From: Halomarina litorea
GTDB lineage: Archaea > Halobacteriota > Halobacteria > Halobacteriales > Haloarculaceae
Assembly: GCF_024227715.1 (NCBI RefSeq)
Contig: NZ_CP100449.1
Span: 62,001 to 126,000 of the forward strand
DNA length: 64,000 nucleotides
Reading direction: 5' to 3'
A program made the translations under genes and the position numbers. The number at the start of each line of letters is the position of its first letter. The first letter of the stretch is position 1. Shown here one piece after another: positions 4,679 to 36,602 of this stretch. A model generated the notes under the pieces. That model was not told the DNA's origin. It did not search any database and was given only the letters and a program-made list of their open reading frames with translations.

Positions 4679-5894
4679 ACTACAACTACAGGTATCGACT
4701 CCGACCGTCCGACGCTCACCGCGAACAGTTAGCGTGGACTGTCGATACCTGTAGACAGGTCTACAACCACTTCCTCCACCGCTTGAATCGGAACGATGAT
4801 ACATCGGCGTACTCCGAACAGAAACTCCTGCCGAGCCTCAAGAAGTGGTGGAACGACCTGAAACAAGTTCACTCAAAAGTTCTACAGAAGGTCGTACAAC
4901 GACTGTACGACAACCTCTCGACACTCCGTGGCCGAAAGCAAAACGGCCACCGCGTCGGGACACTCAAGTGGAAAGGACAGGGAGAGTACCGTTCGTTCAC
5001 CTACAGTCAGTCCGGCTTTGAACTCAAGAACACGAGTGGCCGAACGCGACTGTGGCTCTCGAAAATCGGTGAAATCCCGCTCACCTTCCACCGCGACCTC
5101 CCCGACGACGCCGAGATAAAGACCGTCACGGTCAAACGTGAACCCACCGGCAAGTGGTACGCTGTCCTCGGGGTTGAAACCCCGGACGACCCGCCGGAGA
5201 AACCCGAGAATCCCGAGAAGTGCGTCGGCATCGACGTGGGGATTCTCACGTACGCCCACGACACGGACGGAACCGCCGTCGAATCGCTCGACTTGTCAGA
5301 CGAACGCGAGCGGTTGGAACGCGCACAGCGCGACCTCACTCGGAAGGAACACGGGTCTGCGAATTGGGAGAAACAGCGGGAGGTTGTAGCTGAGCGCCAC
5401 GCCGAGTTGAAGAGCAAGCGCCGCGACTTCCTCCACAAGCTCTCGAACTACTACGCGAGAGAGTATGACTTTGTGGCCGTCGAGGACTTGGACGCGAAGG
5501 GATTGGTAGAGCTACCGGGTAACTCTCGGAACCGGTCGGGGGCGGCGTGGGGGACGTTCCTGCGGATGCTCGAATACAAGTGCGAGCGCGAGGGAACCCA
5601 CTTCGTCGCCGTGAATCCACCGGAACGACCAAAGAGTGTGCGTCCTGCGGCGTTTCGACGGAGAAGCCGCTGTGGGTCCGTGAGCACTCCTGCCCGGCGT
5701 GCGGATTCGAGGCGGATAGAGACGCGAACGCGGCATGGAATATCCTTTCTCGCGGCCTTGAAGATATAGGAGTGGGATACTCCGAATCAACGCCTGTGGA
5801 GACTGCGCTCCCTGTGGATATGTCCGTATCTGCAAAGCGCGTCGTTGAGACAGGAAGCCCCACCCTCAAGCGCGAGCCGTCAGGCGAGCGGTAG
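4675..5894 (+). pseudogene. tnpB: IS1341-type TnpB RNA-guided nuclease, frameshifted
   Basis: The N-terminal helix-turn-helix region (from 4675) and RuvC-like motifs are intact in the first frame: IDVGILTYAHD (first Asp) and VAVEDLDAKGL (Glu). At about 5616-5621 the frame is lost: after VNP the first frame runs into ERPKSVRPAAF, while the next frame continues with TTKECASCGVSTEKPLWV, the CPACG zinc-finger half and DRDANAAWNIL, which supplies the third catalytic Asp. The restored frame ends at 5894 and the first frame stops at 5769. One missing base explains the break. Without the zinc ribbon and last Asp the product should be inactive as a nuclease. Confidence 0.85.
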
Positions 5895-6289: not shown

Positions 6290-6345
6290 CCCCCGCGAGT
6301 CTGAAGGGAGCTGATAGACGTACGCTCTGTGTCTAACAACCCTGG

Positions 6346-6624
6346 CTAACGATACAGCGGTTCGTTTCGCCGCGAGTTGGAGTAACTCGGCTGGTAGACG
6401 CATGTCGATATCTGTAGTGATGCTGCACGGATAGTGCTCTGAGGAAAGAACGTCGAATCACGCTTCGTGAGGAGGTTGCCGACGGTGTAGGCGACGATTG
6501 CTGCACTCGCACCGACGAGGACTTCGTTGGCCCCACCCCACGTAGTGAGGGCGCGTCTCTTTGCCCGGATTTCCGTATACGCATCGAAGACATATGATTC
6601 GAGTCGTCTCACGGCGTCAGGCAC
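6346..6624 (-). CDS. Doubtful small ORF with one hydrophobic helix
   Basis: The 92-residue frame has an N-terminal part that looks protein-like (charged MPDAVRRLESYVFDAYTEI, then the hydrophobic helix VLVGASAAIVAYTVGNLL), while its C-terminal third looks random. It occupies the otherwise empty 304-base gap 6290-6593 and its 5' end overlaps the divergent CuA gene by about 30 bases. It may be a real small membrane protein or the N-terminal remnant of one. I recognise no family. Confidence 0.25.
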   Translation of the reverse strand: MPDAVRRLESYVFDAYTEIRAKRRALTTWGGANEVLVGASAAIVAYTVGNLLTKRDSTFFPQSTIRAASLQISTCVYQPSYSNSRRNEPLYR

Positions 6625-15720: not shown

Positions 15721-17592
15721 TCAGACACGGACGCCCCAGAAGAACGCGATTCCGAGGGTCGTGACAACCGACAGGAGCAACTGCAACGGCGCTCCGACCC
15801 GGAGAAAGTCCGAGAACCGGTAGCCACCAGGCCCATAGACGAAGAGATTCGTCTGATAGCCGACTGGCGTCATGAACGCGGTCGAAGCCGCGAACGTCAC
15901 CGCAAGGACGAACGCAAAGGCGTTCGCACCGATCGACTGGGCTGCACTGGCAGCCACTGGGATCATCAACACGACACTCGCGTTGTTGCTAATGACGCTC
16001 GTCAGCAGTCCGGTCGCGAGATAGAACACCCAGAGGACGCCGATCGCCGGCAGGAATGTCGCCGTCGATGCGACAGCGTCTCCCAGAAGGGCAGCGGCCC
16101 CCGTCTGCTGGAGAGCGATGCCGAGCGGAATGACCCCCGCGAGCAGGAAGATCACGTTCCATTCCACGGCCGTGTACAGTTCGTTCGGTTTGAGGACACC
16201 GGTGAGGACCATCGCCACCACACCTGCTAACGCCGAGACGACGATGGGAAGGACGTTCAGTGCCGGCAGCGCGACGACTCCGGCGATGATGCCGACTGCA
16301 AACGGAATCTTTTCCGTCCGGTACTCGACGTCGTCGAATTCGTGGGCGACGATGAAGTCCTCGTTCTGGACGAGACGCGTGAGGCTATCGGGCGGTGCCT
16401 GCACGAGGAGCGTGTCACCGACCCGAATGTGAATGTCCTCAAATCGGTCGCGGATCACATTTCCACGGGTTCGAAACGCGAGGACGTTCGCGTTGTAGCG
16501 CTGTCGGAACGTCGAACTCTCGAGCGTTTCTCCGATGAGAAAGGATCCAGATGGAATGACGACTTCGACGAGGACGGGCTCTTCCTCCCCCGGGTGAAGG
16601 TCGTCTTCAGTTCGGGGACCCCCGGACAGTATGAGTCCTTCCGCGTCCATGATGCGTTCGAGGGTCTCTCGATTCGTCCGCAGGCGGAGCGTATCGTTTT
16701 CGTGAATCTCCTTACGTGCGAGCGGTTCATCGAACCGCTCGCCGTAGCGAATCAGTTGTAACACGTCGATATCGAGTGTATCGTCTCCGAGTGCCTCACC
16801 GACAGTCTGCCCGATCAACGACGAATTCGTCGGCACGACGACGTCTGCAAGGAATTCTTGAAGCTCGTACTCCTGGACGAGGTCCTCTTCTGCTGGAATC
16901 CGCTCGGGGAGCAACCGAACACCAACAGTCATGAGATATGTCGCCCCGACGACGAACACGATTGCACCGAGTTTGGTGAACTCGAACATCCCAAACGCGT
17001 GTAACCCGAGACCGGGAAGCTCTGCGCCGAGTTGGGCTGCGATGTCGCTCGCGAGAATGTTCGTCGACGTTCCGATGAGCGTCAGCGTCCCCCCGAGCAT
17101 CGAGGCAAACGACAGCGGGATGAGGAGCTTCGACGGTGATGTCTTGCCGTTGTGTGCGAGATCGGTGATGACCGGAACCAAGATGGCGACGACCGGTGTA
17201 TTGTTGATGACTCCCGAGACCGGCCCGGTGATCCCGATAGTCGCCGCAAGCTGCTTTCGACGGTTTGATCCGGCAAACGCCGCCATCCGCCGACCGAGTA
17301 ACTGGACGATTCCGGTTCGGTTGATGCCAGTGCTCAGGATGAGCATCGCCAGCACGGTGATAGTCGCAGGGCTAGCGAATCCAGAAATCCCCTCCCGCGG
17401 GGTAATCTGTGTCCACGGTTCGAAGATCATCAGCAACACCATCACGAGGATTGCGGTGACGTCGATTGGAAGCCATTCGGTCGAGAACAACACGAGCGCG
17501 AGAACAATAAGTGCGAAAACGACGAGCATATCATCCGTCACCGGAGTCGCAGCCACACCCTGAACTGTCAGAGGTACTGCAGAGAAGGACAT
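15721..17592 (-). CDS. SLC13-family permease with two TrkA-C domains
   Basis: Starting at the ATG at 17592 gives 623 residues. The N-terminal half holds helices with SGVINNTPVVAILVPVI and LIGTSTNILAS; the C-terminal half repeats the scheme with SVISNNASVVLMIPVA and FMTPVGYQTNLFV. These duplicated N-N-[TA] and T-P-x-G hairpins are the sodium and anion sites of the DASS/SLC13 fold. Between them (about residues 200-400) lie two TrkA-C (RCK_C) domains (SLIGQTVGEALGDDTLDIDV and FLIGETLESSTFRQ), normally ligand-binding. Likely substrates are sulfate, phosphate or dicarboxylates. It is divergent from the Lrp gene. Confidence 0.85.
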   Translation of the reverse strand: MSFSAVPLTVQGVAATPVTDDMLVVFALIVLALVLFSTEWLPIDVTAILVMVLLMIFEPWTQITPREGISGFASPATITVLAMLILSTGINRTGIVQLLGRRMAAFAGSNRRKQLAATIGITGPVSGVINNTPVVAILVPVITDLAHNGKTSPSKLLIPLSFASMLGGTLTLIGTSTNILASDIAAQLGAELPGLGLHAFGMFEFTKLGAIVFVVGATYLMTVGVRLLPERIPAEEDLVQEYELQEFLADVVVPTNSSLIGQTVGEALGDDTLDIDVLQLIRYGERFDEPLARKEIHENDTLRLRTNRETLERIMDAEGLILSGGPRTEDDLHPGEEEPVLVEVVIPSGSFLIGETLESSTFRQRYNANVLAFRTRGNVIRDRFEDIHIRVGDTLLVQAPPDSLTRLVQNEDFIVAHEFDDVEYRTEKIPFAVGIIAGVVALPALNVLPIVVSALAGVVAMVLTGVLKPNELYTAVEWNVIFLLAGVIPLGIALQQTGAAALLGDAVASTATFLPAIGVLWVFYLATGLLTSVISNNASVVLMIPVAASAAQSIGANAFAFVLAVTFAASTAFMTPVGYQTNLFVYGPGGYRFSDFLRVGAPLQLLLSVVTTLGIAFFWGVRV

Positions 17593-20648: not shown

Positions 20649-22034
20649 TCAGACGGTCGGCTCGATGTTCTGGTTGAGGTGGAACACGTTCTCGGGATCG
20701 TATTCGGTCTTGATCTCGGTGAGACGCCGGTAGGTGTCCTCACCGTAGGATTCGCGGACTCGTTGGGTGCCGTCATCGGCGTCGAGGAAATTCACGTAGA
20801 CTCCCTCTCGATGGGGTTCGAGCGCGTCGAAGAACCGACGGGTCCACGCTGTTTCCGACTCGACGTACTTCTCCTCCTCGTCGGGACGCCAGACACCGTT
20901 GATGTTGATGTTGTGAGGCGAGCCCCGACCGGTGTAGGCGGTGGCGTCATCATCGACGCGGCTCACCGCTCCGCCGAGATGGAAGAGCACCGAGTACGAG
21001 CGAGGCGACTCCGCGGCGAAGGCGTGGTCGACGAACACGTCGATCAGGTCGTCGGACAGTTCCGGCAGATCGGTCGACTTCCAGTAGTAGTGCCATCCAT
21101 GGAGGACGGTGCTGTCGAGTCCGCCTTGGTGTGCCAAATAGGGCTTGGGGGAGACCAGGTCGAGAAGCGGTGTGCCGTGTTCGCTCAGCGGTCGGAGGAC
21201 GCGTTCACCCTCGTCGACCGGGCCGGCGTAGCAGGCGTTGATGGCCACGGCGGGTCGCCAGTGAAGCTCCTCGGGGACGGCTGGGAGGGGAGGGATAGTC
21301 CCGAACCTGATGACGGTGCCAAGCTCGTCGGGAGCATCCCGCGCGAAGTTGCGATAGAAGCGTAGCACGTCGGCGGTGTCGTCCGCCGCCCAGAACACGG
21401 GGCCGGCGAGTACAGTGGGACCGACAGGGTGGAGGGCGAACTCGAAGGAGGTCACGATTCCGAAGTTGCCACCCCCACCGCGCAACGCCCAGAACAAGTC
21501 GGAGTGCTCGTCTTCCGAGGCTCGGATGAACTCACCATCGGCGGTCACCACGTCGGCGGAGAGCAAGTTGTCGGCGGTGAGGCCGTGCTTGCGCATCAGC
21601 CAGCCAATCCCACCGCCGAGTGTGAGTCCAGCGACGCCGGTGTGGCTGACGATGCCGCCCGTGGTCGCCAGGCCGTGGGCCTGGGTCTCGTGGTCGACGT
21701 CACTCCACAGGGCACCGCCCTGTACCCGGGCGGTCCGCGTGCGCGGGTCGACCCACACGGCCCGCATCGCTGAGAGGTCAATGACGATCCCGTCGTCGCA
21801 GACGGCGGTGCCGGCAACATTGTGGCCGCCGCCGCGGACCGCGATTTCGAGGTCGTGTTCCCGTGCGAAGTTCACAGCCGCGATTACATCCGCGGTGCCT
21901 GCACACTTGGTGATGACCGCAGGATGGCGGTCGATTGTTCCGTTCCAGACCGCACGGGCCTCGTGGTAACCCTCGTCGTGGGGCTGGATCAGGGTGCCCC
22001 GAAGCGTTCCTCTGAGGTCGTTAACGGTCACCAT
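20649..22034 (-). CDS. FAD-linked oxidoreductase with BBE domain
   Basis: This 461-residue protein has a PCMH-type FAD domain: CAGTADVIAAVNFAREHDLE, the flavin-attachment stretch VRGGGHNVAG with His, GGALWSDVDHETQ, LTLGGGIGWLMRKHGL and WALRGGGGNFGIVTSF. The C-terminus (REGVYVNFLDADD ... YDPENVFHLNQN) is the berberine-bridge (BBE) domain. Related enzymes oxidise sugars, alcohols or alkaloids with oxygen; the substrate here is unknown. A closely similar gene is divergent to it, so the pair looks like a local duplication. Confidence 0.88.
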   Translation of the reverse strand: MVTVNDLRGTLRGTLIQPHDEGYHEARAVWNGTIDRHPAVITKCAGTADVIAAVNFAREHDLEIAVRGGGHNVAGTAVCDDGIVIDLSAMRAVWVDPRTRTARVQGGALWSDVDHETQAHGLATTGGIVSHTGVAGLTLGGGIGWLMRKHGLTADNLLSADVVTADGEFIRASEDEHSDLFWALRGGGGNFGIVTSFEFALHPVGPTVLAGPVFWAADDTADVLRFYRNFARDAPDELGTVIRFGTIPPLPAVPEELHWRPAVAINACYAGPVDEGERVLRPLSEHGTPLLDLVSPKPYLAHQGGLDSTVLHGWHYYWKSTDLPELSDDLIDVFVDHAFAAESPRSYSVLFHLGGAVSRVDDDATAYTGRGSPHNININGVWRPDEEEKYVESETAWTRRFFDALEPHREGVYVNFLDADDGTQRVRESYGEDTYRRLTEIKTEYDPENVFHLNQNIEPTV

Positions 22035-22293: not shown

Positions 22294-23691
22294 TTGGCGA
22301 TTCACGCTACCCCGTTAGACGACAGTGCAGTATCAGACCTTGAGTCGGGGTTCCGCGGTGAACTTCTCACTCCAGAGACCGCGGAGTACGACGAAGCCCG
22401 GACAATCTGGAACGCCATGATCGACCGACGACCCGCGCTCATCGCCCAGTGTGCGGGTGTCGCCGACGTCATCGCAGCAGTGAACTTCGCTCGCGAACAA
22501 GGCATGCCCGTCGCTGTGAAGGGGGCGGGCCACAACATCGCCGGAGCCGCCATCGTTGACGATGGGCTCGTGATTGACCTCTCGCCCATGAAGTCCGTCC
22601 GTATCGATCCAGAGGCGAAGACGGCGCGAGTTGAACCGGGCGTCATACTCGCAGAGTTCGACCACGAGGCGCAGGCGTTCGGCCTCGCCACGCCCGTCGG
22701 ATACAATTCGACGACGGGCATCTCCGGGCTGACGCTCGGCGGGGGCTTCGGCTGGCTCTCCCGCAAGTACGGCCTCACCGCCGACAACCTCCGAGGAGCG
22801 GACGTAGTCACGGCCGATGGTCGGCTCGTCCACGCCAGCGAGGGCGAGAACTCCGACCTCTTCTGGGGGCTCCGCGGCGGTGGTGGCAACTTCGGCGTCG
22901 TCACGTCCTTCGAGTTCGACCTCCACGAGGTCGGTCCCGAGGTGCTCTCGGGGCTGCTCGTCCACCCGTTCGAGCACACGGCCGAGGTGATGAAGGCCTA
23001 CCGCGAGTTCGTCGCCGAGGCCCCTGACGAGGTGACCGCCTGGATGGTCATCAGGCACGCGCCACCGCTCCCGTTCATCCCGGAGGAGTGGCACGGTGAG
23101 AAGGTACTCGTCATCGCGGTCTACTACGACGGCGCTCTAACCGACGGCGAGACAGTCCTGCAGCCGCTACGGGAGATCGGCGACCCCATCGCCGACGCGA
23201 TCGGCCCCCACCCGTACGCCGGTTGGCAGCAGGGGTTCGATGGCTTGCTCACCCCCGGGGCGCGGAACTACTGGAAGTCCCACAACTTCATGGAGTTCAC
23301 CGACGGGATGATCGACACCTTCGTCGAGTACGGCAAGTCGCTGCCCACATCGGAGAGCGAGATCGCCATCGCCCAGCTCGGCGGTGCGATCAACGACGTG
23401 CCCGTGGACGCAACGGCGTACCCCCACCGGGACGCGGAGTTCCTCATGAACCTCCACACGCGCTGGACCGACCCGGCACAAGACGCCGAGTGCGTCGCCT
23501 GGGCCCGTGCGTGCTACGACGCAATGGCGCCACACGCCACCGGCGGCGTCTACGTCAATTTCATCCCCGAGGAAGTGGGCGAGGAGCGCGCCGCCTATCG
23601 GGAAAACTACGACCGGCTCGTAGAGCTAAAGCGGAAGTACGACCCAGACAACCTGTTCCACCTGAACCAGAACGTCGCGCCGACGGCCTGA
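22294..23691 (+). CDS. FAD-linked oxidoreductase with BBE domain, paralogue
   Basis: I place the start at the TTG 22294 (465 residues), which matches the length of the divergent paralogue; the open frame back to 21994 crosses the neighbour's 5' end and reads as noise. Motifs are CAGVADVIAAVNFAREQG, VKGAGHNIAGA (flavin His), LTLGGGFGWLSRKYGL, WGLRGGGGNFGVVTSF and C-terminal YDPDNLFHLNQNVAP. The residue before GxGHN is Lys where the paralogue has Arg, and the proteins differ throughout their middle parts, which suggests different substrates. Confidence 0.85.
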   Translation: MAIHATPLDDSAVSDLESGFRGELLTPETAEYDEARTIWNAMIDRRPALIAQCAGVADVIAAVNFAREQGMPVAVKGAGHNIAGAAIVDDGLVIDLSPMKSVRIDPEAKTARVEPGVILAEFDHEAQAFGLATPVGYNSTTGISGLTLGGGFGWLSRKYGLTADNLRGADVVTADGRLVHASEGENSDLFWGLRGGGGNFGVVTSFEFDLHEVGPEVLSGLLVHPFEHTAEVMKAYREFVAEAPDEVTAWMVIRHAPPLPFIPEEWHGEKVLVIAVYYDGALTDGETVLQPLREIGDPIADAIGPHPYAGWQQGFDGLLTPGARNYWKSHNFMEFTDGMIDTFVEYGKSLPTSESEIAIAQLGGAINDVPVDATAYPHRDAEFLMNLHTRWTDPAQDAECVAWARACYDAMAPHATGGVYVNFIPEEVGEERAAYRENYDRLVELKRKYDPDNLFHLNQNVAPTA

Positions 23692-29766: not shown

Positions 29767-30696
29767 ATGGCGACGAGAGACATCTACATGTGCACGTTCG
29801 ATGAGGATGTACCGACTAAAACCAACACGACGCCGTTCTGCCCAGAGTGCGATGGCGTTGTCCGAACGAACAGCGTCGAGACTGCCTGCGAGGATTGTGG
29901 GCTAATCATCGACGAGCAGCTGATCGACCACGGGCCGGAGTGGCGGGCGTACGACGAGGGCGAATGCGAGCGAACGGGTGCACCGCTCACGTCAGCACGC
30001 CACGACCGAGGCCTGTCGACCGAGATCGGGCGGAACGTGGATGTGATCGGCAGTGACCTCTCGGGACGGAAACGACGACAGCTAGGGTGACTGCGACGTG
30101 AGCACCGGCGTGGGAAGTTCCGGTCGACCGCCGAGCGGAACCTCGCGCACGGGCTGGGCGAGGTCCGACGCATCGCCGGGGCACTCGGCCTCGCCGAGAC
30201 GATTCGCGACCAGGCGTGTCAGCTGTTCCGGAGCGCGCAGTCGGACGGGCTGTTCCCCGGTCGGCCGATCGAAGCGATGGCCGCCGCAAGTGTCTACGGT
30301 GCCTGTCGGTGCAACGGCTGTTCGCGAACGCTTGACGACGTTGTCGTTCCAGCGCGAGTCGACGAGACGAGCGTCCGCAGCGCCTACAAAGTACTCAACC
30401 GAGAACTCGGCCTCCCCGCGAAGCCCATGACCCCGAGTTCGTTCGTTCCCCGACTGGCGTCAGCACTCAACGTCGCGAACGACGTGCGACATCGAGCGCG
30501 AAGTCTCGCAGAACAGGTGGATTCGGCGGGTGCAGTGACAGGCGTCAGTCCGTCCGGCGTCGCCGCGGCCTGTCTCTACGACGCGCTTCGTGACCACGAA
30601 CGAGAGGTGACGCAGGCGACGGTCGCCGAAGCAGCGAACGTCACGGCGGTCACGGTGCGAACTCACTGGAAGACACTCCAGGATGTGGCGCACTGA
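29767..30696 (+). pseudogene. Transcription initiation factor TFB with internal stop
   Basis: From ATG 29767 the protein has a TFIIB zinc ribbon (FCPECDG ... CEDCGLIIDE), the B-finger/linker ERTGAPLTSARHDRGLST and SGRKRRQLG. A TGA (30088-30090) then interrupts the frame where relatives have Arg, but the same frame continues without shift: LRREHRRGKFRSTAERNLAH, GALGLAETIRDQACQLFRSA, AAASVYGACRCNG and a second cyclin repeat to 30696. A single CGA-to-TGA change explains the break. Haloarchaea carry many TFBs, so loss of one is tolerable. An internal start at 30277 could give only the second half. Confidence 0.8.
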
Positions 30697-31228
30697 CCCG
30701 CGGAGCGCGGTCGCAGTCTTTCCAGTCTGAGGGGTAGCTGGAAGCGAATATTCATGAAGCCGGGACGGCGTCATCAAAGACGAACCAACGACACGAACTA
30801 CGACGGAATTGAGATTTTTCAATCGGTGAAGCGAGTCGTCTACAGACACCAGCTTGCCAGGCAACAGGGGGTTAATCGACGGCCAACAGAACTACAGACG
30901 GCGTCGCCCGAGTCACGTCGTGCGGGGCTGTCAGCGGCCGATTCGTCTGTCCATTCCATCCCCGTTTTCGACCGTCTCTGCTGGAGGCGTGCGTATCGAC
31001 ACGCCACCCTGACCGAGTCGTGGTGTCCAACGGCCACGGACTCGACGCAGGGGTGAGCTCATTCTCGCTTCCGTGATCGTGGTGGCGTGTCCTCTCACGA
31101 TGGGACTCGAAGACGAGACGATGCCCGTTGCGAGTGCCTGCTATTTAGTGCCGCGAGCAGGAAACTGTCGTCGCATCTGACAAGGTGTTATGAGGGGCTA
31201 GTCGTTAGCACCGGTACCCTGCGCCGAT
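30697..31228. other. Intergenic gap, 532 bases, decayed duplicate region
   Basis: No gene is supported. Bases 30925-30980 resemble 33181-33235 (shared GGGGCTGTCA/GGGCTGTCA, GTCTGTC-ATTCCA and CCCGTTTT blocks), so part of this gap and part of the 33-kb gap derive from one ancestral segment. Confidence 0.4.
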
Positions 31229-32661: not shown

Positions 32662-32721
32662 CGCTCTGCTGGCCGTAGCGCCATCCCAAAAGGTATCCGT
32701 CAGACACTGTGACTCACCTAC

Positions 32722-32973
32722 ATGGATGGTGGGGATATCCGAGAGCATGCGGTGAGGCTCGTCGAACGCGAGACAGCTACGACGATCGAATCGACGCGCA
32801 TCGCTGAGCAACTGACGACGAGCGAGGGCAGCGCACTCGTCATCGCTGTCGAAACGACCGACGAGACCTACTGGGTCGTCGACGACGGGCGCCGTACCGC
32901 GTGCTATCCCGCCGCCAGCCACGACTCAGCCAATACCGTCCTGACCGACCATATGACCTCCCAGTCGTGGTGA
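32722..32973 (+). CDS. Small uncharacterised acidic protein
   Basis: The 83-residue protein (MDGGDIREHAVRLVERETAT) has an N-terminal helix pair and a beta-rich middle (ALVIAVETTDETYWVVDDGR). It is acidic and looks coding in composition. No family is recognised, and it stands alone in accessory DNA. Confidence 0.5.
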   Translation: MDGGDIREHAVRLVERETATTIESTRIAEQLTTSEGSALVIAVETTDETYWVVDDGRRTACYPAASHDSANTVLTDHMTSQSW

Positions 32974-33652
32974 CAGCGTGGCTGTGCCCAACTAATCGAG
33001 GTCGACCGACCTCCTAGGCTCGTTCCCACCGACGACGATGAATCCGCGTCAAGCAACGGGCGTTCCGGTTCCGATATCGAACGGGAGAGGATCTGGCGGT
33101 CACGCTCGTGACCACGCAGGCCGATAGGGCACTGATCGGCCAATAGACCGACAATCAGAACTATCGGAATCCTCAGTGCAGGGCTGTCAACGGCGATGTT
33201 GTCTGTCGATTCCACCCGTTTTTCGCCGCGTCTGAACCGATAGTGCAGACGGACATGCCGCCCCGACCACGCCGTGGTGTCGAATTGCCACTGGCCTGAT
33301 GGAGATCAACTCATTTCCACGTCCGAGAGTGGTAAGCGACGTATCGACACAGCACGGACGTCACCGGTCAGATTAACCAACAGGAGCGGGATGCAGTTCC
33401 GATTGGTCTTTTTGCCGGGAATGCGACACCGATACTGCTGCTGAAGCTACTGTTACCTGTCGTCAGTAGTGTCTGGATCGATTGTCCCGTTGTAGCCTGA
33501 AAAGACCAAGTTCTGTTGGTTAAGGTGAGAGAGTAGCCAGGGTGTAGCGTTGACAATCGCTCGCAGACGACACGTTCTTTCATGCCGATTCGCGGTGACG
33601 CACCCGTTAGACTTGTGCCGCCGATGTATCAGTTCGGTCGCTCAGCAGTGAA
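32974..33652. other. Gene-free stretch, about 680 bases
   Basis: I find no supported gene. A segment at 33181-33235 is a diverged relative of 30925-30980. Open frames near 33370-33580 have random composition. The region looks like decayed accessory DNA. Confidence 0.45.
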
Positions 33653-33966
33653 TCAGCTACCGGTACCCGTTCGGTCCTGTGTGTGGACCGGGTCGTGGGA
33701 GGAATCGTGGCCGAGTGGCCCGTGGGGCGCATGAGGCGCGTGCCCGACGTGGTGAGCGTGATTCACCCAGTTGTCGTCGTGCTGATGCCCCCCCAGTCGT
33801 TATCGACTCCCCAGTTGTCACAGACGTGGCCGATGGTCGCGACCGGATCTGTGAGTGTATCCGCACTGTGAACCCCCGCGGTTGCAATAGTAGTCAGCGC
33901 AAGCCCTATCAGCAGTATCTCCACGCCACCGATGACTGCTCGAACGAGATTCAGGGTTCGCCTCAC
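33653..33966 (-). pseudogene. Small exported protein with His-rich tail, frameshifted at a C7/G7 tract
   Basis: From GTG 33966 the frame gives a signal-like N-terminus (RTLNLVRAVIGGVEILLIGL) and HVCDNWGVDNDWGG. On the coding strand a run of seven G (top strand C, 33788-33794) follows, after which the used frame soon stops. Adding one G restores a frame to 33655 that encodes GHQHDDNWVNHAHHVGHAPH, then APHGPLGHDSSHDPVHTQDR: eleven histidines in about 35 residues. I infer an exported metal-binding protein, either broken, phase-variable or mis-sequenced at the homopolymer. It lies next to a metal ATPase gene. Confidence 0.5.
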
Positions 33967-34141
33967 CTACTAGATGGTTGTCGATACGGGGAGATAGGAC
34001 CTCCGCCGTTCTCACGTACCGAGAGTGACCTGCGACGTCTCACTCGCGGGACGGAGGTCGACTGTGAACGACTATGGTACGACTCTGACGACCGGTACTG
34101 TCATGTCATTCACCAGCTAAGCTCAGTGCCGATGCCTGAAG

Positions 34142-34264
34142 GACGACATCGGTTACATCGTCATCGGAAGCCACAGTCGTGGCGAGCTGGACCGTGCGAT
34201 GCTGGGGAGCGTCGCAGAGACAGTAATACGACGTTCGAGGATTCTGGTGACAATCGTTCGATGA
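34142..34264 (+). pseudogene. C-terminal remnant of a UspA-family protein
   Basis: The frame reads DDIGYIVIGSHSRGELDRAM then LGSVAETVIRRSRILVTIVR and stops at 34264. This is the ATP-binding G-x-H-x-R ... GSVAExVIRRS end of a universal stress protein. No start or N-terminal half is found upstream. It lies 145 bases before the metal ATPase gene. Confidence 0.65.
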
Positions 34265-34409
34265 GTGCCTCTCGCCGGGGTGTCTCTGTGGTTCCTACGG
34301 AGGGGGTGGTCCTCAGAAGATGTAGGGAGCAGTTGTTGCTGACGCCCGGGAGCAGTTCGCAGGACTTGTTCATATCGGGGCGTGACGTCACGAACGAGGG
34401 CGACAATAC

Positions 34410-36602
34410 GTGACGAGTACAGGACCAGCCACACTCTCGAGCTATACGATACAAATCGGCAGGCACGGTGGGCGGAGTGAATCGGGGGCGCTATCACTCG
34501 AACGGCGACTCTCCGATATGCCAGGCGTCCACGACGCTGAAGTCTCGTTTCGTGCAGGGACCGCACGCATCACGTACGACAGCAGCGTCACCTCGGAGGC
34601 CGACCTCAAACGAGTCATCCGCGACCATAGGGTCTCGCTCCGGGACGAGGCAGATGCCGGTGGACTGAGTGAGGAGGCCGACGAGACTACGACCTCGGAA
34701 CTGCGCACCGAGGCATTGTTCGTTGTCATCACCTTCGTAGGGATGATAATCGGTCTGAGCGTGGGCTGGTTCGGTGGCCCGGCCGCCCTAGGGTGGGTCG
34801 GGTACAGTGCAGCGTACGTCTTCGGCGGCTGGTATGGGCTCAAAGGGGGCGTCGAGACGCTTCGGCACCGTGCCGTCGACATCGACCTGCTGATGATCGT
34901 CGCCGCACTCGGTGCACTGTCGATCGGCGCACCGTTCGAGGGGGCGATGCTCCTCTTCCTGTTCTCCCTGTCGAATACCCTCCAGCACTACGCAATCGGG
35001 CGCTCACGCCGGGCGATCAAATCGCTGGTGAACATGCGACCAGACACCGCGGACGTCCTCCGTGGTGGTGAGGAGGTCACAGTACCGATCGACGATGTGG
35101 CCGTCGGCGACGTCTTCGTGGTCCGTCCTGGTGACCGCATCCCGCTCGACGGCACCGTCGAGTCGGGTGAGAGCACAGTCGACCAAGCGTCGCTCACCGG
35201 AGAGTCCGTCCCAGTGCCGAAAGAGCCACGCGACGAGGTGTTCGGTGGGACGATCAACGAAAGCGGGAGCCTCGAGGTCTCGGTGACCCGTCAAGCCCAC
35301 GAATCGGCTATCACCCGTCTTATCCATATGGTCGAGAGTGCCCAGAGCGAGAAAGCACCCACGCAGCGACTCATCGACCGTCTCGAACAGCCCTACGTAC
35401 TGGGCGTGTTCGGACTCACCGGCGCGGCGATAATAGTCCCATTACTCCTGGGTGGCGAGTTCACGAGCACGTTCTACCGTGCGATGACGCTGATGGTCGC
35501 CGCGTCACCATGTGCGGTCATCATCTCGACGCCGGCGGCAGTGCTCTCGGCGATCGCTTCGGGCGGACGACAGGGGGTGTTATTCAAGGGTGGCGAACAC
35601 GTCGAGACGGCGGCGACGGTCGACGCCGTCGCATTCGACAAGACGGGGACACTCACCGAGGGCAACACGCGGTTGACGGACGTGGTCGTGCGCGACGATA
35701 TCCCCGACGGGCAGCGACTCTCGGAGACAGAGTTACTCGTCCGGGCCGCGGCGGTCCAGGACCGTTCCGAACACCACCTCGCTCGAGCCATCGTCACGGA
35801 AGTCGAGAACCGTTCGCTCGACTTCCCCGAGGCGCGAGGGTTTCAGGCGACTGCCGGGAAAGGGGTGCGGGCGACCGTCGATGGCAGGACGGTCCACATC
35901 GGCAACCGGAGCTACTTCCAGACGGTATTGGCCGACACACCCGTCGAGGGGCAGGAAGTCGGCCTCGAGAAACTCGAAGCGCTCGAAAGTGAGGGAAAGA
36001 CGGCTGTAATCGTCGCACTCGAGTCCGACAATGCGACCCGCGTCGTCGGGTGGCTCGCGTTCACAGACACCCTCCGTCCGGGGGCCGCCGACATGATTTC
36101 CGACCTCCGGGCGCTCGGCATCGAACACATCGTCATGCTGACGGGGGACAACGAGCGCGTCGCACGTCGCATCGCCGACAAAGTGGATATCGACGAAGTA
36201 CGGGCAGAGCTACTCCCCGAGGAGAAGGTGGCCAGCTTAGAGGCGCTGGTCGAACGCCACGATACCGTGGCGATGGTCGGCGATGGCGTCAACGACGCCC
36301 CTGCGCTCGCGACCGCCTCGCTCGGTATCGCGATGGGTGGTGCCGGTACCGACGTGGCACTCGAGACGGCTGACGTCGTCCTAATGGGGGATGACCTGAG
36401 CAAGATTCCGTACGTCCTCGAGCTGGGGCGCCAGACGCGCCGGACCCTCGTGACCAACCTCGCAATCGCCTTTGGAGCGATTGCCCTCATGGTTGGCACC
36501 ATCCTCTTCCAGGGGCTCGCGCTCCCTCTCGCCGTGGTCGGGCACGAGGGGTCGACCGTGCTGGTCTCCTTGAACGGACTCCGACTGCTCGGCTATCGAT
36601 GA
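34410..36602 (+). CDS. P1B-type heavy-metal ATPase (SPC/HEGST type)
   Basis: The 730-residue protein (GTG start) has a ferredoxin-like N-terminal domain (about residues 10-75) without the usual CxxC, then P-type motifs: TGESVPVPKE, SPCAVI in the sixth-helix position (about 366), DKTGTLTEG (about 408, phosphorylated Asp), a SEHHLARAIV His pair for nucleotide and GDGVNDAP (about 623). The last helix has HEGSTVLVSLNGLRLL. The SPC plus HEGST pair is characteristic of the P1B-4 (Co, Zn, Fe or Cd) group rather than copper pumps with CPC. Expected role: efflux of divalent transition metal. Confidence 0.87.
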   Translation: MTSTGPATLSSYTIQIGRHGGRSESGALSLERRLSDMPGVHDAEVSFRAGTARITYDSSVTSEADLKRVIRDHRVSLRDEADAGGLSEEADETTTSELRTEALFVVITFVGMIIGLSVGWFGGPAALGWVGYSAAYVFGGWYGLKGGVETLRHRAVDIDLLMIVAALGALSIGAPFEGAMLLFLFSLSNTLQHYAIGRSRRAIKSLVNMRPDTADVLRGGEEVTVPIDDVAVGDVFVVRPGDRIPLDGTVESGESTVDQASLTGESVPVPKEPRDEVFGGTINESGSLEVSVTRQAHESAITRLIHMVESAQSEKAPTQRLIDRLEQPYVLGVFGLTGAAIIVPLLLGGEFTSTFYRAMTLMVAASPCAVIISTPAAVLSAIASGGRQGVLFKGGEHVETAATVDAVAFDKTGTLTEGNTRLTDVVVRDDIPDGQRLSETELLVRAAAVQDRSEHHLARAIVTEVENRSLDFPEARGFQATAGKGVRATVDGRTVHIGNRSYFQTVLADTPVEGQEVGLEKLEALESEGKTAVIVALESDNATRVVGWLAFTDTLRPGAADMISDLRALGIEHIVMLTGDNERVARRIADKVDIDEVRAELLPEEKVASLEALVERHDTVAMVGDGVNDAPALATASLGIAMGGAGTDVALETADVVLMGDDLSKIPYVLELGRQTRRTLVTNLAIAFGAIALMVGTILFQGLALPLAVVGHEGSTVLVSLNGLRLLGYR

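Follow-up and report, generated by a model that had tools for sequence, protein, structure and literature searches.

A small histidine-rich gene, probably decayed, beside a dispersed ~107-bp site that may belong to an integron-like system in Halomarina

The window, by which we mean the whole 64,000-nucleotide stretch of haloarchaeal DNA that was analysed (G000:C2:62001-126000 on a 375-kb contig, G000 being the window's own genome), carries a short broken gene on its minus strand, with a metal ATPase gene diverging from it and half of a dispersed site lying beyond its 3' end. The features concerned, in window coordinates, are the following.

33763-33966, minus strand: N-terminal part of the broken gene, a 67-codon open reading frame
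33788-33794: seven C on the plus strand (seven G on the coding strand) at the frame break, read in the zero frame as G GGG GGC
33653-33787, minus strand: His-rich tail in another frame, homologous to the tails of intact relatives
33544-33631, minus strand: half of a ~107-bp site, 3' of the His-rich gene
33368-33528: MITE-like 161-bp stretch with 16-bp inverted repeat ends (88% complementary), adjoining the degraded end of the site
33679-34413, plus strand: antisense open reading frame that crosses the Usp remnant
34136-34264, plus strand: remnant of a universal stress protein (Usp) gene, the last 36 of 141 profile positions
34410-36602, plus strand: intact heavy-metal P-type ATPase gene, divergent from the His-rich gene
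29767-30697, plus strand: TFIIB gene with an in-frame TGA at 30088-30090
6313-6413, minus strand: second ~107-bp site in the window, full-length, 56.5 bits

An earlier note on this DNA had claimed that a signal-bearing, His-rich protein lies hidden here and is broken at the homopolymer, and our analysis bears this out. The minus-strand frame stops early, and one extra base in the C7 run yields a protein of 104 residues that ends at the stop codon 33653-33655. With the CTG at 33954 taken as the first codon, the restored protein has 13 histidines, and its tail past the tract has 11 in 44 residues; its N-terminus is hydrophobic, with a best 19-residue Kyte-Doolittle mean of 2.15.

When 146 genomes from the window's family were searched, the sole full-length homologue outside the window genome was that of Halomarina oriensis JCM 16495 (G053), which is 66% identical over residues 5-94 and lies in a single open frame. 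The matches in 68 of the 70 genomes that appeared at E up to 1 in the first family search were weak and were set aside. A two-sequence profile, run against 392 genomes of the order, matched 12 genomes at E ≤ 0.01, of which eight were accepted, including the window genome, and four were dropped; it added homologues in G206, G247, G256, G261 (Halorussus ruber), G307 (Halorussus salinisoli) and G349. Intact homologues were found in seven other haloarchaea, H. oriensis and the two Halorussus among them. Two weak profile matches, G297 (E 0.005) and G342 (E 0.009), were set aside as chance, and those of G202, G284 and G511 were likewise judged to be chance once their frames had been read.

All seven relatives combine, in one open frame, a hydrophobic N-terminus, a DPV..GHV..NDWG.H.H core and a His-rich tail of 41-56 residues, 11-16 of them histidines, the core of the intact relatives reading DPVSTVGHV.DQWG..NDWG.H.HGDDW. 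The window copy shows all three parts only across two frames, and its frame break coincides with the core-tail junction, where a single base has changed in the G run. The earlier note had held that its proposal would be refuted if the restored tail had no homologue; homologous tails are present in all seven relatives, so the restored tail is more than chance. These sequence comparisons indicate that the restored protein represents a real and previously undescribed family of small, predicted exported, His-rich proteins of haloarchaea.

By the eight-sequence profile the protein family is rare: in the window's own family two of 146 genomes carry the gene, in that of G206 five of 28, and in that of G349 one of 170 gave a true match (G511 dropped), while a class-wide draw of 391 genomes gave four true matches (G202 dropped). 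Three members scanned against Pfam and NCBIfam gave no match to the His-rich protein, the PDB gave none either (best E 0.51), and no homologue was found in the plasmids and viral contigs searched or, for viral contigs, by a pattern scan with a variable gap. A search of the open-licence literature by title and opening of the abstract, which also covered phase variation and integrons or cassettes in archaea, returned no account of the His-rich family or of the ~107-bp sites. The predicted structure of three natural relatives (pLDDT 49.9) was firm only in the N-terminal helix. The intact protein would be secreted or membrane-anchored, and its histidine content, taken by itself, suggests that the tail may bind a divalent metal outside the cell; this undescribed family should be easy to test for metal binding.

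The damage to the window copy extends to its start codon. At the start place, six relatives have ATG and one has GTG, whereas the window has CTG (33952-33954). A promoter-side block with TTAT is common to most relatives, and in most of them a GAGG-like stretch directly precedes the start codon. An in-frame GTG sits 12 nt upstream of the window's CTG, and this GTG (33964-33966), the start of the window's open reading frame, overlaps the ribosome-site-like stretch. Part of the text of a study of Haloferax volcanii (PMC3986360) describes AUG, GUG and UUG starts on leadered mRNAs and only AUG on leaderless ones; by these rules the upstream GTG could serve only if the mRNA were leadered. The loss of the start codon is thus not certain death for the gene, since with a leader the upstream GTG could serve.

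Of the 27 columns in which the seven relatives do not vary, the window copy retains 24, on either side of the break, implying that the damage is recent. Before the tract, the window and H. oriensis copies differ at 16, 9 and 27 sites at codon positions 1, 2 and 3, respectively, the pattern expected of coding sequence. In the tail the corresponding differences are 4/4/5, showing no codon-position bias (5/9/13 when the C-termini are aligned differently), so that purifying selection on the tail is unsupported between these two copies. Among the three most similar relatives, the tails show an excess at third positions (G206/G247, 4/4/10; G206/G256, 4/4/12; G247/G256, 4/2/10). A one-base indel near the C-terminus separates H. 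oriensis from the window, implying that the end of one or the other has also been altered.

The C7 tract itself is no more than chance, a run of this length being common in the window: three runs of C or G of at least seven were observed, whereas 30 simulations of the window under a first-order Markov model averaged 8.1 and ranged from 2 to 14. In all seven relatives the G run at the break is four long (TGG GGN, followed by GAG, GAC, GCC or ACC), which leaves the relatives without a tract that could vary.

The DNA match between the window and H. oriensis extends through the gene and past its stop into the dispersed element, which begins 21-25 bp beyond the stop in the two genomes (21 bp in the window). 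The homologous block thus comprises the gene plus the site, and the flanks differ between the two genomes. H. oriensis has a full site at this place; in the window the 5' half (33574-33631) is good and the pattern of the 3' half is lost. Taken together, we propose that the window holds a gene for a small exported His-rich protein that has recently decayed, and that gene and site form a cassette, a reading to which we assign a probability of roughly 0.6. A tyrosine recombinase acting on the ~107-bp sites would move gene and site together; the cassette would be intact in H. oriensis, and the window copy would be a stranded remnant with the 3' half of its site gone. What suggests movement is the shared gene-plus-site block between different flanks, rather than a matched empty site; a site match would by itself not prove that this gene travelled as a cassette. 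The remnant would be decaying among other broken genes, namely the TFIIB gene with its nonsense codon, which apart from this TGA gives a gapless 306-residue alignment (54% identity) with its intact counterpart in H. oriensis, and the Usp remnant between the His-rich gene and the ATPase. On such a decay account, the frame break is one of several lesions.

An intact gene with a wrong base count in the tract, its protein starting at the upstream GTG, would also account for the break, which falls exactly in a homopolymer and is well conserved on both sides, as the 24 retained columns attest. The tract length in the assembly may indeed be a base-calling error, as the earlier note had allowed. However, a sequencing error in the tract would leave the CTG, where all seven relatives have ATG or GTG, unexplained as a second lesion beyond any homopolymer error, and other C6 or G6 runs in the window are intact within long open frames, for example at 17089-17094 in the frame of a 658-aa transporter. 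We therefore consider an intact gene unlikely. Programmed -1 frameshifting, described for archaea and haloviruses in part of the text of PMC8211752, would give the 104-residue protein at G GGG GGC and the 67-residue form beside it; the zero-frame heptamer conforms to X XXY YYZ, and the sequence a few nucleotides downstream can fold into a hairpin. However, the hairpin is weak (z-score -1.4 to -1.5 for 76-88 nt; -3.0 for a 126-nt stretch), the heptamer is missing from all seven relatives, and Y is usually A or U according to the same part of that source (PMC8211752), which makes frameshifting very unlikely here. The earlier note's suggestion of slipped-strand phase variation, which would act on a surface or secreted protein, has in its favour that the frame of an exported protein breaks at a G7 run, but it is highly improbable and we rejected it, given that all seven relatives lack the tract, that runs of this length are common by chance in the window, and that the gene has a second lesion at its start codon and has lost half of its site. 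A homopolymer at a frame break does not alone make a phase switch.

The earlier note had also pointed to a neighbouring metal ATPase gene. The gene is intact; its product scores above the TIGR01525 and TIGR01512 cut-offs and carries an SPC motif, which part of the text of PMC8880997 reports in P1B-4 ATPases. The link to the His-rich gene is weak, as a P-type ATPase lies nearby at only two of the eight loci (the window and G349), with different subfamilies and layout: at the G349 locus a copper-type ATPase (best match TIGR01511) is convergent with the His-rich gene, accompanied by a SHOCT protein. The neighbourhood is thus a hint only; we left it out as evidence of function and rejected the ATPase as a partner gene. 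In H. oriensis, a cluster of an iron-dependent regulator, a multicopper oxidase, a ZIP-like protein and a plastocyanin lies ~3 kb from the His-rich gene, and part of this cluster also occurs at the window's left edge, 32 kb from the gene. Ten neighbours scanned at the L061 and L065 loci included no metal transporter or enzyme by family name and one ArsR-type regulator. Elsewhere in the window, neighbouring FAD_binding_4/BBE genes (21417-21968 and 22387-22938) form an inverted DNA repeat at 70% identity.

The ~107-bp site is a family in its own right. From an alignment of 20 full-length copies, its consensus has the boxes G.TAGAC and GTCTA.C, 11 bp apart, at either end. With one mismatch allowed, the core pattern has 7, 0, 2, 17, 0, 26, 4 and 0 copies in eight Halomarina genomes, in which a reversed control pattern has none, and the site model finds 72 sites, spread over 8 of the family's 146 genomes and 3 of its 22 genera. 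RNAalifold did not recover a fold conserved across the full site, covariation in its stems did not exceed that of shuffles, and no ~107-bp site was found in the plasmids and phages searched. The window stretch 32721-33390 is 85% identical to a stretch on G000:C4, where a site is likewise nearby. A TFIIB-bearing block recurs beside ~107-bp sites in several Halomarina genomes (window 29767-30697; L033 8038-8979; L116 from 9430; L098).

Natural breakpoints were seen where L136 (H. oriensis C2) is compared with L137 (G055 C14). The two loci share a tyrosine recombinase block (94.5% over 953 bp) and a 5.9-kb block at 99.9% that is inverted between them, with lipoprotein genes that are unrelated to each other lying between the shared blocks. 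All three edges of the shared blocks fall within a few bp of the edges of sites or half-sites, and the last differing bases at the three junctions lie in or beside the outer box of each site. These natural breakpoints argue that recombination probably occurs at the sites. The stretches that hold the recombinase gene are the following; one half-site overlaps the 3' end of the gene and a second lies upstream of it.

L136 5006-5888: stretch with the tyrosine recombinase gene (5006-5821)
L137 6705-7587: stretch with the tyrosine recombinase gene

The recombinase has 271 aa and matches PF00589; in G055 it is split into two open reading frames. The two copies are among 53 PF00589 matches in the eight Halomarina genomes, and no copy was found within the 64-kb window. 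Relatives below 60% identity occur in 38 of 72,556 plasmid records, these 38 being haloarchaeal, and no relative was found in the viral contigs. In the plasmid stretches L138-L140, which we read, no ~107-bp (R1) site is present and the end of the recombinase is not clearly repeated, the one match being an inverted 22-bp stretch in L139. Another PF00589 match, on G055:C15 (332255-332818), lies ~1.5 kb from a site core (330698), and on a Salinirubellus plasmid a related recombinase adjoins a TFIIB gene.

The sites form arrays of uniform direction. Of neighbouring sites no more than 1.5 kb apart, 17 pairs have the same orientation and none the opposite; up to 3 kb the counts are 20 versus 1. Across the five arrays that we read, 12 of 14 intervals have a clear gene, mostly one small gene each, the exceptions being L111 6675-7398 and L113 5073-5297. 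By eye, the gene has a twin-arginine lipoprotein signal in seven of the 14; a VapBC-like pair (PIN domain) occupies one, and four hold another small gene. These genes occur on both strands, and by nucleotide comparison neighbouring genes within one array are not mutual duplicates. The loci G055:C14:323185-326400 (L111) and G055:C11:81003-84785 (L112) are six-site arrays in a single orientation, whose intervals hold small genes, mostly for exported proteins, and the VapBC pair; the L112 array reaches the contig end.

The site family thus seems to shuffle small genes in Halomarina, much like bacterial integrons. We hold at about even odds the further proposal of an independent archaeal integron-like system, in which a ~271-residue tyrosine recombinase of non-IntI type would move single small genes between ~107-bp sites; such a cassette system is apparently undescribed. 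Its cargo would often be Tat lipoproteins and other exported proteins, with the His-rich protein as one passenger, and the 25-bp box pair at each end of a site would allow cassettes to lie either way round. If true, what integrons do would have been solved a second time on a separate design, in cultured haloarchaea with laboratory genetics, which would help to account for the patchy distribution of small genes for surface and secreted proteins.

Exported His-rich metal-binding proteins are familiar from bacteria as the Hpn and SilE/PcoE types. The present family resembles them in being small and His-rich, several of these bacterial proteins also having an export signal, and in being a plausible metal buffer, but no sequence relation was found through Pfam, NCBIfam or the PDB.

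Cassette arrays of archaeal integrons have been described (PMC9668308), in an article whose main text names no Halobacteria (0 matches). Unlike integrons, the eight Halomarina genomes contain no match to the integrase IntI (TIGR02249) above cut-off, and G055, which has the most sites, contains none even at E ≤ 0.001. The Halomarina sites also differ in having a box pair at both ends and stems without covariation support, and their cassette genes lie in both orientations, not mostly in that of the array. The attC sites of integrons have the consensus RYYYAAC/GTTRRRY; the inner boxes of part of our sites (GTCTAAC/GTTAGAC) fit it, whereas in Halomarina the AAC/GTT triplet is variable at its middle base. 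The likeness to integrons lies in arrays of one orientation whose related sites separate short genes, most intervals holding a single gene or a single toxin-antitoxin pair, in rearrangement breakpoints that fall at the sites, and in a tyrosine recombinase gene that ends in a site.
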